DNA from: Thiorhodospira sibirica ATCC 700588
GTDB lineage: Bacteria; Pseudomonadota; Gammaproteobacteria; Ectothiorhodospirales; Ectothiorhodospiraceae
Length of the DNA stretch: 64,000 bases
NCBI RefSeq assembly: GCF_000227725.2
Contig: NZ_MU255056.1
Coordinates: forward strand, 1,103,591-1,167,590
Reading direction: 5' to 3'
The stretch's first letter is position 1. Every line of letters starts with the position of its first letter. The notes under the pieces were generated by a model, which ran no database searches, was not told the origin of the DNA, and worked only from the letters and a program-made list of their open reading frames with translations. Both the position numbers and the translations under genes were made by a program. Of this stretch, positions 21,078 to 54,319 are shown in pieces.

Positions 21078-21880
21078 ATGGATATGGACATCAAACGCGC
21101 CTACCGCTTCCGGTTCTATCCAACGCCCGCGCAGGAACAAACCCTTGCCCGGACGTTCGGTTGTGTGCGTTTTCGCTTACAACCACATGCTGCGGCTGCG
21201 TACGGATGCGTGGTTCAAGGACCAAAAGCGCGTCGGCTATCACGAGACCTCCGCACGACTGACCGAGTTGAAGAAGACGCCAGAACATGCGTGGCTCAAC
21301 GAAGTCAGCAGCGTCCCGGTACAGCAGGCGTTACGCCATTTGCAAACGGCGTTCGCCAACTTTTTTGCCAAGCGTGCCGGGTATCCCGCGTTCAAGCGCA
21401 AGGACGGCTCGCAGTCAGCGGAATACACGACGAGCGCCTTCAAAGACGTGGCGGCACCTTCCAGGTGCCGCTGAAAACCAAGCGAACGCAAGATGCGTCC
21501 GCCACGTGCGCTCAACCCGGTTGATCAACGAAAAGCAAGTGATCGCCGTCGAGACGCTGGCCGTGAGCCACCTGCAGAAGAACCGCTGTCTGGCGAAGTC
21601 CATCAGTGATGCAGGCTAGTCGGAGTTTGTCCGGCAGTTAACGTACAAGGCGCAATGGTGTGGGCGAATGCTGGTGGGTATCGACCGCTGGTATCCGTCG
21701 AGCAAACGCTGTTCTGAGTGTGGACACACCGTAGCGAAAATGCCGCTGTCTGTCCGAGATTGGGTCTGCCCGGAATGCGGCAGTCTCCACGACCGCGATG
21801 TGAATGCAGCGCGCAATGTGTTAACCGCCGGGCTGGCGGGGTTAGTCTGTGGAGAGAACGTAAGTCCCGTGTTGCTGTAA
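21078..21880 (+). pseudogene. tnpB pseudogene in element copy 1
   Basis: It starts like TnpB (MDMDIKRAYRFRFYPTPAQE). An extra C near 21175 shifts the frame at CVRF compared with copy 2. At 21446-21507 a structured repeat replaces the central coding region, so the RuvC-I Asp is absent. The remaining 3' part keeps the RuvC-II Glu (IAVETLAVSHL), the zinc finger (CSECG, CPECG) and the RuvC-III Asp (DRDVNAARNVL). A TGG-to-TAG stop lies near 21618. Confidence 0.88.
21446..21507. repeat. structured repeat family A (alpha type) inside tnpB
   Basis: Outer 9-bp stem ACGTGGCGG / CCGCCACGT encloses two hairpins: GGCACC-TTCCA-GGTGCC and ACGCA-AGA-TGCGT. The same 58-bp core is at 47533-47590 and, with paired base changes, at 29904-29961. 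Confidence 0.85.
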
Positions 21881-21945: not shown

Positions 21946-21978
21946 CCTGCCTGCCGCGACGCACGCGGCGCAGGCAGG
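21946..21978. repeat. 33-bp palindrome inserted in the right-end hairpin loop
   Basis: Arms CCTGCCTG...CCGCG and CGCGG...CAGGCAGG around ACGCA, with a 2-base bulge. Copy 2 of the element has the plain loop (48021-48040) without this insert. Confidence 0.85.
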
Positions 21979-29903: not shown

Positions 29904-30079
29904 GTGGCGGCATCTTCCAGATGCCGCATAAAAACCAGCGAACGCAAGATGCGTCCGCCACACCGTGGCGGCATCATCTTGATGCCGCAAAAAGAAAGCG
30001 ACGGCTGGAAGCCGCCGCCACGGGTGGCGGCATCATCTTGATGCCGCAAAAGAAAGCGACGGCTGGAAGCCGCCGCCAC
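29904..30079. repeat. tandem array of three family A structured repeats
   Basis: Three units at 29904-29961 (alpha), 29965-30021 and 30024-30079 (both beta). Each has the outer stem GTGGCGG/CCGCCAC. Alpha has hairpins GGCATC-TTCCA-GATGCC and ACGCA-AGA-TGCGT. Beta has GGCATCA-TCT-TGATGCC and CGGCT-GGA-AGCCG. This fills most of the non-coding gap between the glycosyltransferase and pilA. Confidence 0.85.
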
Positions 30080-33622: not shown

Positions 33623-34183
33623 TTATTGAGGCGGCAAAAAAGTTTCGATGATATCACCCTTGCGTTGCAACACGGTCACGCCTTGAGAGAGCGCCTGTTG
33701 TTTTAACTCATCATAGATCGAGAAGCTCGCTAGCACGAGATGATGTCGATAATCTTTGTACATGGGAAACAGCGTTTTAAAGTTTGTATACTTGCTGGTT
33801 AAGAGCTTTTTTAAATCGGCTTCATGGGCTTTATATTTGACTTCGATAATAGCGACATCTTCGCCATTGACCATCACAATATCGAACTCATCTTCCACTT
33901 TATCTGCGCTGCGCGTTAAGTTTTTATCAATAAAATCATAACGAATCCCGCCCAGCTCTTGAGTGTCTTTGAGTGAGTTAAAAAAGAACTCTTCGGTGAT
34001 TTCGCCCAGGTTGCGACCAAAGGCGCCGATCATTTCGCCGATTTTTTGAAGCTTACGATCAGTTTCGGCCATTTGGGCATCAGTCTTGGCAAACTGAGCA
34101 TCGGTTTTAGCCATTTGGGCATCGGTTTTAGCCTGAGCAACCGCGAGACTGGCAACCAGTGCTTTGAGTTCATCATCAGTCAT
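33623..34183 (-). CDS. coiled-coil protein with PD-(D/E)XK-like nuclease domain
   Basis: 186 residues from ATG at 34183; the frame extends upstream to 34303, into the repeat. The N-terminus has a heptad-like repeat (KTDAQMAKTDAQFAKTDAQM), a probable coiled coil. The C-terminal 110 residues show a restriction-like core: Asp in DEFDIVMVNG, then IIEVKYKAHEADLKKLL. This resembles DUF3782-type proteins. Whether it cuts DNA is inferred. It is bracketed by two inverted copies of repeat family B. Confidence 0.72.
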   Translation of the reverse strand: MTDDELKALVASLAVAQAKTDAQMAKTDAQFAKTDAQMAETDRKLQKIGEMIGAFGRNLGEITEEFFFNSLKDTQELGGIRYDFIDKNLTRSADKVEDEFDIVMVNGEDVAIIEVKYKAHEADLKKLLTSKYTNFKTLFPMYKDYRHHLVLASFSIYDELKQQALSQGVTVLQRKGDIIETFLPPQ

Positions 34184-34286
34184 AGGGATGTCTCCTTTTT
34201 TATGTGCAGTGCGATCAGTTAAATGTGCTGATGATACCTCAAAAAACTCACCCGTAAGGAAGCCTCTGCCGGGAGCGCGTAGCACT

Positions 34287-34380
34287 CTGGGATCGCGCAG
34301 CACCCGCTGCGCATTTGATACGCTTTAAACCCCACGAGGCCTGCGGCCTCGGTGCGCAGCGGGTGCTGCGCGGTCCCAGG
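34287..34380 (-). repeat. family B structured repeat, copy 2 (inverted)
   Basis: About 94 bp, inverted relative to 33506-33604. Paired changes keep the stem: GCGCAGC...GCTGCGC here against GCGTAGC...GCTACGC there. The central CGAGGCC-GCA-GGCCTCG hairpin is identical. A further partial unit (GGGAGCGCGTAGCAC) sits just left at 34271. 34381-34659 otherwise holds only the open leader frame of the next gene. Confidence 0.85.
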
Positions 34381-34659
34381 GGGCTTGTGTTTGCGTGGTA
34401 GGCGGGGTAGAGTAGCCACGCGGTGGCCGTTACGGCTGCTGCGCGGGATTGGCATCCCATGAAGAAGCGGAAAAGCCGCTTTGATGCGGTTTTTTTGTGT
34501 CTGTTATCTTTACTGCGCGCTTCTCGCTCCATGCGGGTGGCTGTATGTGGGCGTCTTCGACGCGCCAGACTTCTTCCTGGTATGCCAACCCATACAGTCG
34601 CCTGCGCCCCTTTAAGGGGGCACAGGAATTTATACACTTGTATGGAGTTGGCTAATCTA

Positions 34660-37389: not shown

Positions 37390-37467
37390 GCCATGCAAGG
37401 CTGCGGGAATGCCGATTCAACGCCGCCTTATGCCGTGATTTCAACTTTGCGATATAGGATTTTCGTG

Positions 37468-40400
37468 ATGCATAGCAGTGGAAACAGGCCCAACACTCAC
37501 AAGGTCAGCCGGATCTGGATCATCATGATGGTGATCACGGTATTGATTTCCGGGGTGCTCTCCAGCATTTGGGCCATGCAAAAAGCGGATCGAAAAATCC
37601 GCGAGGATTTGTTACTCACTACGCAGTTAATCGCCCAAAGCATTCCACCGGATCACCTGCTCAACCTCCGGGCGCGGGTGGCGCAGCAAGACAGCCCCAG
37701 CTATCAGCGTCTTAAAACCCAGCTGGCGGCGATTAAAAGCACTTACCCGGATTATGCCGCCATTTATCTGATGGGCTTGGCATCGCCACCGCACACAACA
37801 GACGACCCCGCAGTTTTTTTCTTCATCAGCAGTGATGCACCCGCAGACAAGGCCAAAGCCTTGAGCGGAACCGCTTATGTTGAGGCCCCGGAAGGCTTGC
37901 GCTATGCCTTTAAGCAGCGCACCGCCATCCTTGAAGGGCCATATCGTGACCGCTGGGGGCAATGGATCTCCGCTTTTGTGCCACTGCCCGGCGGCGCTAT
38001 GAGCTTATCTGAGACGCCGCCGGAAGCCTATGCAGTCCTTGGCATGGATCTTAACATCACCCTGTGGCGTGGGGAGATTATTGCAGCGGGCCTGCCTTCG
38101 CTGCTGGTTATGCTGATCTTGCTGGGCATTTTGCTGCTCGGCGTGTGGGCTTTTGCCCGTTATGCCAAAGACCCGCAGACCTCGCCGTATAAGCTGCGTC
38201 TGCTGGCGGTCAGTCTGGCGGTGCTTGCCGGATTATCCGTGACCCTGTTTATCGCCAGCAATGCCCATCAGGATGAAGCCCAGGCCCGCAGCGCTTCATT
38301 TAAAACCTTGGCAATCACCAAAACCGCCGGTTTTTTGGAGGATATGCGCGGCATCCTGGATACCGAGCTTGAGGGCCTGGCGCGCTTTTATGAGACCCAG
38401 ACAGAGATCACAGCAGCCCAGTTTAATTATTACAGCGCCTATCTTTTGCAAAATCCGGCGATTGATGCCTGGGCCTGGGTGCCGGCCATTACCGATGCCC
38501 AGCGCAGCGCCTTTGAGCAACAGATACAGGCTCAAGGCATCGCAGACTTTGTTATCTGGGAACAAAACGCGCACGGCATTCGCCAAGGCGTCAGCCAGCG
38601 CGCACAGTATTTCCCGATCCATTACATCACCGCCCACCATGACACCCAGCGCCTGCTCGGCTATGACATGGGCTCTGAGGGACTGCGCCGCGAGGCTCTG
38701 GAATATGCTGCACACACCGGGCTGGCGACCAGTTCCAAACCGCTGACGCTGATCAAGAACTTCCCGCATGAGCAGGGGGTGTTGATCTATCGCCCGGTCT
38801 TTCATCAGACCGACCCCAAGGCCCTGCGCGGCTTTGTCGTGGCGATGCTGTCTTTACCCAGTCTCCTGGCCAGCTCAAGCCCCGATGAAACGGTGATGTT
38901 GAGTCTGTCTTTGCAGGGCCATACGGCACCCGCTACACCGTTGGCGCTTTCCTGGGAAAGTGAGTGTCAGCCGACCCTGTCCTTGCAGCGACCCATCCTG
39001 GCACTGGGCAATGCCTTTGTGCTGAATGCCTATGCCGGCCCGGCCTTTATGGCCCTGTATCCGGTGCGTGCGGTCTGGCTGACCGGCATCATGGGACTTT
39101 GTTTAACCCTGGCGCTGGCAGCGGTGGTCAGCGCGGTATTTTTGCGCCGCGAAATTCTCGAACAAAAGGTCTCGGAGCGCACCGCTTCCCTGCGCCAAAG
39201 TGAGGCCCGCTTTAACCATCTGGCCCAACAAAGCCGCACCATCATCTGGGAAACCGATGCCCAAGGGCGCTATGTCTACCTCAGTGATGTGGTGTATGAG
39301 GTATTGGGCTACCCGCCCGGTGAGCTGATCGGTATAAAACCCTTTGAAGAACTGCACGCCCAGGCGTTCGATTCACAGACCGGCGAAGATCTGCATACCC
39401 TCTGGCAGCAGGGGCGCCCCTTCCAAAACCTTGAGCTGCTGACTAAAACCCGCAACGGCCAGCCCCTCTGGTTATCCAGTAACGGCATTCCCTTGTTTGA
39501 TGAAGATGGCCAGTTACGCGGCTACCAGGGTGCTGACACCGACATCACCCCCCGCAAAGAAACCGAGCAGGAAATCTTTGAAGTCAACGAGGCCCTAAAA
39601 AAACAAATGTGTCTGGCGACCCAGATGGCCTTTCAGGCCGAGGCCGCCAATGCCACCAAAACCGAATTTCTCGCCAATATCAGCCATGAACTGCGTACCC
39701 CGATGAATGGCGTCATTGGTATGAATGGCCTGTTGCTGGAAACCGAGCTTACCGAGGAACAAAGGGAATATGCCGCCATCGTGCGCAATAGCGGTGAGCT
39801 GATGATGAGCATGATCAACGACATTCTCGATGTCTCCAAAATCGAGGCCGGTAAGCTTGATCTGGAGATTTTGGCCTTTGATCTGGAAGGAATGCTGGGC
39901 GATCTGGTGGATATTATGGCGCTGCGCGCCTATGACAAGGGCCTGGAGCTGTTTTATACCCTTGAACCTGGCCTGCCCCGGCATATGCGCGGTGATCCGG
40001 GGCGGTTGCGGCAAATTCTTAGCAACCTCATCTGCAACGCCATCAAATTCACCCCCAAAGGCGAAATTGCCATTCGTGTCGCCTGCGTTCAGCAACAAAG
40101 CGATATGGCCGTGCTGCGCTTTGCCGTGCGTGATACCGGCATTGGGATTCCGCCAGACAAGTTGGGGCAGCTGTTTGAAAAATTCACCCAGGTAGACAGC
40201 TCCACCACCCGGCGCTATGGCGGCATGGGGCTGGGCCTGGCCATTGCCAAACAACTCACCGAAATGATGCACGGCGAGATCGGTGTTGTCAGCGAAGCGG
40301 GCCAAGGCTCGGAATTCTGGTTCACTGTCCGCCTGGAAAAACAGCCCGAAGATCTCCAAAAATCCCCACGGGAACGCGCCGAACTCAAAGGCGCCCGCGT

Positions 40401-41244
40401 CCTGGTTCTTGACGCCAGTCAGGGACATGGCGATATGCTCGGACAACAACTGCAGTCCTGGGGGATGCGTATCACCCACGTCATCGACCAGCAAGGCGCA
40501 TTCGAGCGACTGCGCGAGGCTGCCGCTGACGATCCCTTCCACATCATGCTGGTGAACACCCAGATGTCGCGTGACGAAGGTGAGGCGATCAGCAGCGCGC
40601 TACGCCAGGAACCGCGCCTGCAGGCCACCCGCCTGATCCTGCTCACCCCGCTGGGGATACGCGGTGATGCGCGCTATTATGAAACATTGGGCTTTGCTGC
40701 CTACCTTACCAAGCCGGTCAAGCCCCATGAACTGCAAGGCGCCTTATCCCTGGTGCTTGCTAAACCCACCACGGCCGACGCCAGCAGCACCCTCAATGCC
40801 GCACAGATCATCACCCGTCACACCGTGCGCGAGGCGATCAAGCGCTTTGCTGACTGCAAGGCCCGCATCCTGCTCGTGGAAGATAATCTGATTAACCAGC
40901 GCATGATGATGCAAATGCTCAAAAAACTCGGCCTGCGTGCTGATGCCGTCGCCCATGGCGCAGAAGCGCTCAACGCCCTGGAAATGACCCATTATGATCT
41001 GGTGATCATGGACGTAAAAATGCCCATCATGGACGGTCTGGAAGCCACCCGCCAGATTCGCGCCCACGCCACCCCCATGCGCTCCAGCCAGGACATCCCG
41101 ATCATTGCCATTACTGCCCACGCCATGCATCTGGATCGGGAAAAATGCCTGCAAGCGGGCATGAACGACTACCTCGCCAAACCCATCACCCTGCACTCAC
41201 TGATCGAGGTTCTGGATCGCTATCTCAGCCCTGCAACGGCCTGA
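37468..41244 (+). CDS. hybrid sensor histidine kinase with CHASE, PAS and two receivers
   Basis: 1258 residues from ATG 37468 (AGGA eight bases upstream; the frame is open to 37393). Order: membrane helix (about 15-35), periplasmic region, helices near 210-255, a CHASE-type sensor region (about 270-540, [20 protein letters not shown]), helix, PAS (about 590-700), HisKA with H740 in ISHELRTP, HATPase_c, then two receivers. The first receiver lacks its acceptor Asp (N1030 in MLVNTQM). The second is intact ([12 protein letters not shown]1182 in IMDVKMP, AKPI). It is followed by the hydrogenase genes, but a link is not shown. Confidence 0.9.
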
Positions 41245-41247
41245 ATC

Positions 41248-41271
41248 ATGGCGGTATCTTCCAGATGGCGC
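41248..41271. repeat. decayed half of a family A repeat
   Basis: ATGGCGGTATCTTCCAGATGGCGC matches the left half of the alpha unit with two mismatches that break its stem. It lies 4 bases after the kinase gene. Confidence 0.5.
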
Positions 41272-47163: not shown

Positions 47164-47965
47164 ATGGATATGGACATCAAACGCGCCTACCGCTTCCGGT
47201 TCTATCCAACGCCCGCGCAGGAACAAACCCTTGCCCGGACGTTCGGTTGTGTGCGTTTTGCTTACAACCACATGCTGCGGCTGCGTACGGATGCGTGGTT
47301 CAAGGACCAAAAGCGCGTCGGCTATCACGAGACCTCCGCACGACTGACCGAGTTGAAGAAGACGCCAGAACATGCATGGCTCAACGAAGTCAGCAGCGTC
47401 CCGGTACAGCAGGCGTTACGCCATTTGCAAACGGCGTTCGCCAACTTTTTTGCCAAGCGTGCCGGGTATCCCGCGTTCAAGCGCAAGGACGGCTTGCAGT
47501 CAGCGGAATACACGACGAGCGCCTTCAAAGACGTGGCGGCACCTTCCAGGTGCCGCTGAAAACCAAGCGAACGCAAGATGCGTCCGCCACGTGCGCTCAA
47601 CCCGGTTGATCAACGAAAAGCAAGTGATCGCCGTCGAGACGCTGGCCGTGAGCCACCTGCAGAAGAACCGCTGTCTGGCGAAGTCCATCAGTGATGCAGG
47701 CTGGTCGGAGTTTGTCCGGCAGTTAACGTACAAGGCGCAATGGTGTGGGCGAATGCTGGTGGGTATCGACCGCTGGTATCCGTCGAGCAAACGCTGCTCG
47801 GAGTGTGGACACACCGTAGCGAAAATGCCGCTGTCTGTCCGAGATTGGGTCTGCCCGGAATGTGGTAGTATCCACGACCGCGATGTGAATGCAGCGCGCA
47901 ATGTGTTAACCGCCGGGCTGGCGGGGGTAGTCTGCACAGAGAACGTAAGTCCCGTGTTGCTGTAA
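47164..47965 (+). pseudogene. tnpB pseudogene in element copy 2
   Basis: First frame 47164-47559 is intact from MDMDIKRAYRFRFYPTPAQE through CVRFAYNHMLRLRTDAWF to YTTSAFK. A family A alpha repeat at 47531-47592 then introduces a stop. The 3' part continues in another frame with the RuvC-II Glu, zinc finger and RuvC-III Asp (NEKQVIAVETLAVSHLQKN, CSECGHTVAK, DRDVNAARNVL). The RuvC-I Asp region and part of the barrel are absent. It lacks the extra C and the TAG stop of copy 1. Confidence 0.88.
47531..47592. repeat. family A (alpha) repeat inside tnpB, copy 2
   Basis: Identical to 21446-21507 over 62 bases, including the outer stem ACGTGGCGG / CCGCCACGT. Confidence 0.85.
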
Positions 47966-48070
47966 AGCGGCATCGGCTGGTCTCGTTGAAACAGAAAGTC
48001 CTGATCGTGAGGTTAGGAATCCCCGTCCTTTAGGGCGGGGTGGATGTCAACGCGTATAATCCGACTTAAT

Positions 48071-54212: not shown

Positions 54213-54319
54213 GCAAACGCAAGATGCGTCCGCCATGTGGCGGCATCATCTTGATGCCGCTCCAAAAAAATGCGACGGGTACCGACGTGCATCGCAGCAG
54301 GCAGGGAAGCCGCCGCCAC
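54213..54319. repeat. family A repeats: half alpha plus divergent beta unit
   Basis: 54213-54235 matches the right half of the alpha unit (AACGCAAGATGCGTCCGCC). 54237-54319 is a beta-like unit with the stem GTGGCGG/CCGCCAC and the hairpin GGCATCA-TCT-TGATGCC, but with a longer second hairpin (TGCGA...TCGCA). It lies between htpG and the next convergent-side gene. Confidence 0.7.

Follow-up and report, generated by a model that had tools for sequence, protein, structure and literature searches.

A REPIN-like family of paired, mostly unlike hairpins in Thiorhodospira sibirica, whose assembly shows no transposase to match

The repeats described here (family A) are very probably a lineage-specific family of REP dimers, of the kind known as REPINs and as the GTAG superfamily. 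Each unit holds two inverted hairpins, almost always unlike, joined by an A-rich linker, and the family would be a non-autonomous single-strand DNA mobile element whose RAYT has probably been lost, or which the single remaining RAYT serves. Miniature mobile DNA of this kind is already known; what marks family A is that its two hairpins differ and that the assembly shows no transposase to match.

The window, which is the whole 64-kb stretch analysed (C4:1103591-1167590, C4 being the contig label in genome coordinates), was scanned for arms with five 24-base arm consensus sequences and for whole units with a covariance model (R1). The features found were the following.

21448-21505, + strand: REP dimer with arms CACC / ACGC, within a deleted tnpB (R1, 80.4 bits)
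21946-21978, + strand: 33-bp palindrome inserted into the 3' hairpin of a tnpB-type IS, at its apex (alignment, sequence and genome copies; no counterpart in the copy near 47990)
29904-29961, + strand: REP dimer with arms CATC / ACGC (R1, 81.9 bits; two-hairpin DNA fold, z -5.8)
29965-30021, + strand: REP dimer with arms CATC / CGGC (R1, 79.0 bits; DNA fold, z -5.2)
30024-30079, + strand: REP dimer with arms CATC / CGGC (R1, 78.0 bits), in tandem with and near-identical to the 29965 unit
41248-41271, + strand: single decayed REP arm of the CATC class (3 mismatches to the arm consensus), just past the stop of ORF 37393-41244
47533-47590, + strand: REP dimer identical to 21448-21505, within a second deleted tnpB (covariance model)
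54213-54236, - strand: single REP arm of the ACGC class with its head decayed to ATGG (2 mismatches to the arm consensus), adjoining the 54237 unit
54237-54319, + strand: REP dimer, its right arm enlarged by an insert related to the 33-bp palindrome (R1, 56.2 bits; sequence)

The earlier note had named units starting at 29904, 29965, 30024, 21448, 47533 and 54237, and the covariance model and arm scan recovered all of them; the half unit that it reported at 54213 and the decayed half at 41248 were borne out as well. Arm copies in the window carry 0-3 mismatches, and ten Markov-resampled windows that kept the dinucleotide content gave zero arm matches, even at 5 mismatches. Elsewhere in the window, positions 34527-34611 match RF01695 (C4 antisense RNA; 47.1 bits against a gathering score of 45), and an ORF at 33623-34303 on the - strand has a sub-threshold Pfam match to a Card1-like endonuclease domain (22.3 bits against a cut-off of 26.4).

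The earlier note had proposed that a covariance model be run against the full genome and relatives. Trained on 25 distinct units and scoring only about 96 candidates per genome, the model found 98 units here (genome of 3.2 Mb in 5 contigs, 98% complete); a few more were met in flanks, so that 98 is a minimum. In 57 other genomes, which include 36 of the host's own family and no congener, it found no unit. By its closest HtpG proteins alone, those of Ectothiorhodospira (76% identity) and Thioalkalivibrio (72-75%), the genome would probably be placed near these two genera. A stem-blind pattern, GTGGCGG-N40..50-CCGCCAC, occurs at 36 places in the genome, all but one of them (35) being units, and a general single-arm pattern gives 224 arms compared with 4 for the reversed pattern. 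The dimer, two inverted REPs with a spacer as in REPINs, is the dominant form; single arms also occur. The exact CATC arm had no match in 84,980 genomes, the exact arm pattern none in viral contigs and the window repeat none in plasmids, in searches from which the source genome or very near records were perhaps excluded. Hence, family A is confined to the present genome among the genomes searched. We infer the mobility of family A from its copy number and dispersal.

Like REPs of the GTAG superfamily, these high-copy units are mainly extragenic. With ORFs of 150 codons or more called mechanically, 11 of 91 units were embedded in one, compared with 529 of 800 nearby control stretches (66-69% of controls). 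Most heads are preceded by C or T. The guide model of PMC8266576 predicts that the flanking dinucleotide depends on the head, and GTGG and GTAG heads gave no clear difference here, GTAG heads being few. About 10 family-A units directly abut the ends of other repeats that end in ...GGCGCTCCC or similar (C4:1019183, 1275211, 2512856 and 2764499, C5:1870 and others), and GCGCTCC or GGAGCGC lies within 100 bases of 20 of the 91 units.

Each unit consists of an arm, an A-rich linker of 7-13 nt and an inverted arm. Read from its own end, an arm is GTG followed by an 8-bp hairpin with a 5-nt loop of the TTCCA or ATCTT type, and four stem classes dominate: CATC/GATG, CACC/GGTG, ACGC/GCGT and CGGC/GCCG. 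Among 87 distinct units, the left head is GTGG in 68 and GTAG in 11, and the right head is GTGG in 67 and GTAG in 8; the GTRG tetranucleotide thus stands directly before a short palindrome, as in REPs of the GTAG superfamily. To the left of the linker lies a CATC or CACC arm, and to the right an ACGC, CGGC or CACC arm. Like was paired with like in 1 of 30 distinct exact-head units, compared with 7.9 expected by random pairing (P ~0.0004, which is optimistic because copies share descent). This near-absence suggests avoidance of long perfect palindromes, or a need for unlike ends.

Family A resembles the REPINs of Pseudomonas fluorescens SBW25, in which two inverted REPs with a spacer are extragenic and high in copy number and compensatory changes are common (PMC3116915), but differs from them in its unlike arms (like-with-like in 1 of 30) and in that no cognate RAYT was found. 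Because the two arms are unlike, a long hairpin beyond the heads is impossible in family A; the less stable 'clover' configuration that Bertels and Rainey described for REPINs (PMC3116915) is close to its predicted two-hairpin form. With the E. coli BIMEs that combine y and z REPs (PMC8266576), family A shares the mosaic of unlike inverse REPs, the GTRG head and strand-specific hairpins; it differs from them in its stem sequences, in having no conserved two-base bulge, and in its 8-bp stems and 5-nt loops. It is also like the HH dimers of the GTAG superfamily, whose stems are 6-9 bp, in its outside GTRG head, alternative complementary stem residues, G.T pairs and dimeric form, and GTAG families with degenerate heads, comparable to the GTGG/GTAG heads here, are known (PMC3733652). 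The comparison with the GTAG families listed there (e.g. GTAG-5 of Thioalkalivibrio sp. HL-EbGR7) is by description, not by consensus sequence. The anatomy of family A is that by which GTAG-superfamily REPs (PMC3733652) and REPINs (PMC3116915) are defined, the cognate RAYT excepted.

Consistent with the earlier note, the window holds no RAYT: the Y1 transposase matches of the genome, at C4:1251738 and C4:2141118, both lie outside it. PF01797 matches at two places in the genome: C4:1251738, where a fragment adjoins a tnpB gene, and C4:2141067-2141408. NF047646 matches only the latter, which is a REP-associated tyrosine transposase of 243 aa and the only RAYT-family gene detected in the genome. 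The search beyond the window that had been proposed therefore did reveal a RAYT, but one flanked by different repeats and not by family A.

L009 1260-1440 and 2110-2285 (C4:2140906-2141902), direct orientation: RAYT-flanking repeat, with the RAYT between the two copies

This repeat is larger than a family-A unit, and copies or fragments of it match at 31 places in the genome. Like family A, it has two unlike hairpins and an A/T-rich linker; its predicted fold is a three-way junction closed by an outer CACCGGGGG/CCCCCGGTG stem, and it has no GTRGCGG heads. No family-A unit was seen in the 3.2-kb locus of the RAYT. Relatives have up to 15 NF047646 matches each, and no GTRGCGG arms were found at those of their RAYT flanks that were examined. 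Therefore, the mobiliser of family A is absent, undetected, or the single RAYT working outside its own repeats.

REPIN populations have a RAYT gene flanked by the same REPs. Because the sole RAYT here is flanked by another repeat family, we file family A as REP dimers, or REPIN-like, with the cognate RAYT missing. The RAYT at C4:2141067-2141408 could instead mobilise family A together with its own flanking repeats, so that the units are not orphans. We consider this possible though unlikely: it is the only RAYT-family gene detected and its repeats share the two-hairpin plan, but their outer stem and lack of GTRGCGG heads set them apart from family A, as does the want of a family-A unit at the locus. 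For the REP-dimer reading, we envisage that a REP-associated tyrosine (HUH) transposase would have recognised the GTRG head and hairpin on single-stranded DNA and copied the units to intergenic sites. Because the search detected no transposase gene to match, the units are probably orphans of a RAYT since lost, or else are served by the single one that remains; REPtron loss has been described (PMC3733652).

The earlier note had seen GGCACC/GGTGCC exchanged for GGCATC/GATGCC and suspected compensatory change. The exchange is real: this pair is T-A in 61 units and C-G in 19 genome-wide, hence Watson-Crick in 80 of 87 compared with 52.9 in shuffles (pair L7). Counted in the same way over the 87 distinct units, the left-hairpin pair L4 gave 72 compared with 53.2, and the right-hairpin pairs R5, R6 and R7 gave 78, 74 and 76 compared with 39.5, 29.0 and 52.3. 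The variable outer-stem pairs were at shuffle level (O3, 66 and 62.7; O7, 54 and 54.7). The genome-wide excess of paired changes, whose failure would have told against the earlier note, is thus present, within each arm's own 8-bp hairpin only. The shuffles disregard the relatedness of copies, which makes covariation P values optimistic; more weight therefore lies with the difference that one and the same set of sequences shows between hairpin pairs and outer pairs.

The earlier note also took the outer GTGGCGG/CCGCCAC as the enclosing stem of a three-way junction. This part of its model is not supported, since the outer stem neither covaries nor forms in the predicted DNA fold, in which units show two hairpins with open ends (z between -5 and -7); the three-way junction is therefore rejected for family A. 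One arm may also exchange a GTGG head for GTAG, or the reverse, with no matching change in the other. Hence, the outer complementarity is a shared GTRG head and not a selected helix.

The wobble pairs carry a further signal. With the arms read from their own GTRG heads, we counted 105 G.T wobbles and 27 A.C mismatches; therefore, the two arms prefer opposite strands. This is expected of two inverted single-strand recognition elements rather than of one RNA, and TnpA-REP proteins are known to bind one strand of the REP, leaving the complementary strand unbound (PMC8266576). It bears on a second alternative, that the units are selected as structured RNAs (a three-way junction), transcription terminators or mRNA-end stabilisers and that their dispersal is secondary. 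Strong hairpins in mostly intergenic places would suit such roles, and the sequence offers a hairpin followed by a T-run on the strand opposite the A-rich linker; but the closing stem that a junction RNA needs does not covary, the two arms have opposite wobble polarity, and no Rfam family matches at the unit positions. Relative to co-directional neighbours, 21 units lie in line and 21 against, and this absence of orientation bias speaks against the terminator role. We consider the RNA alternative improbable as a whole.

Target duplications were not found at the units, where matches of 2-9 bases stood at control level. The earlier note had suggested REP/BIME or MITE elements with selection on folded DNA or RNA. 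The REP/BIME half, with selection on folded single strands, is supported by the 98 or more units, by covariation inside the arms, by the GTRG heads and by the intergenic sites and lack of target duplications; a MITE of a DDE element, for which target-site duplication is the mark, is not supported, given that same lack. That the units are such a MITE or the debris of a tnpB-type IS is very improbable, for although they are short inverted-repeat units at many sites and six lie within IS copies, they lack target duplications, the rest lie elsewhere than in the IS, and the unit is missing from a related tnpB copy.

The six tnpB-type IS copies carry one identical 58-base unit and are 93-100% identical over 873-991 bases. 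The related tnpB copy at C4:2915775-2917065 has ~406 bp of tnpB in place of the unit. By this comparison, the unit took the place of ~406 bp of tnpB before the IS multiplied; because of that order, the tnpB-borne units are passengers that the IS has copied along with itself. The tnpB deletion may have arisen, for instance, by recombination between two inserted units. The possibility raised in the earlier note that all units are fragments of one known IS is rejected, as all but six are outside the tnpB element. The 58-base unit has 0 variable columns across the six IS copies, whereas nearby stretches have ~4 per 58; this invariance, not significant alone, is suggestive of gene conversion or constraint.

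A 33-bp palindrome, CCTGCCTGCCGCGACGCACGCGGCGCAGGCAGG, is present in 58 copies in the genome (at most 3 mismatches; 29 identical) and in none of the 57 other genomes. Its sites include the following.

21946-21978 of the window; 54237-54319 of the window (variant); C4:571425-571457; C4:2470276-2470306; others

Filled and empty forms differ by 33 bases added without duplication or loss. In family A, the palindrome enters between TG and GAA of the right-arm TGGAA loop, and in the tnpB-type IS between CCTT and TAGG of the 3' hairpin. Among 31 distinct palindrome sites, 12 are tandem composites; 8 of the other 19 lie in a predicted hairpin loop, compared with 3.5 at control positions. Apex targeting by the palindrome is a lead, not proof. 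We put forward tentatively, as a doubtful reading, that an almost exclusively heterodimeric REPIN population without its transposase has been invaded by a palindrome that inserts without target duplication at single-stranded hairpin apices, both in REP arms and in the IS 3' hairpin, and that would thus be a mobile element targeting cruciforms or single-strand loops. This side observation may be more novel than the REP dimers themselves, and structure-directed insertion could be tested on the hairpin-loop insertions, whose empty and filled forms are exactly defined.

With family A, the known REP families gain one that is lineage-specific and heterodimeric, covaries cleanly within its hairpins and apparently lacks its transposase. 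It is well suited to the question of whether a REPIN population can persist once its RAYT is gone.
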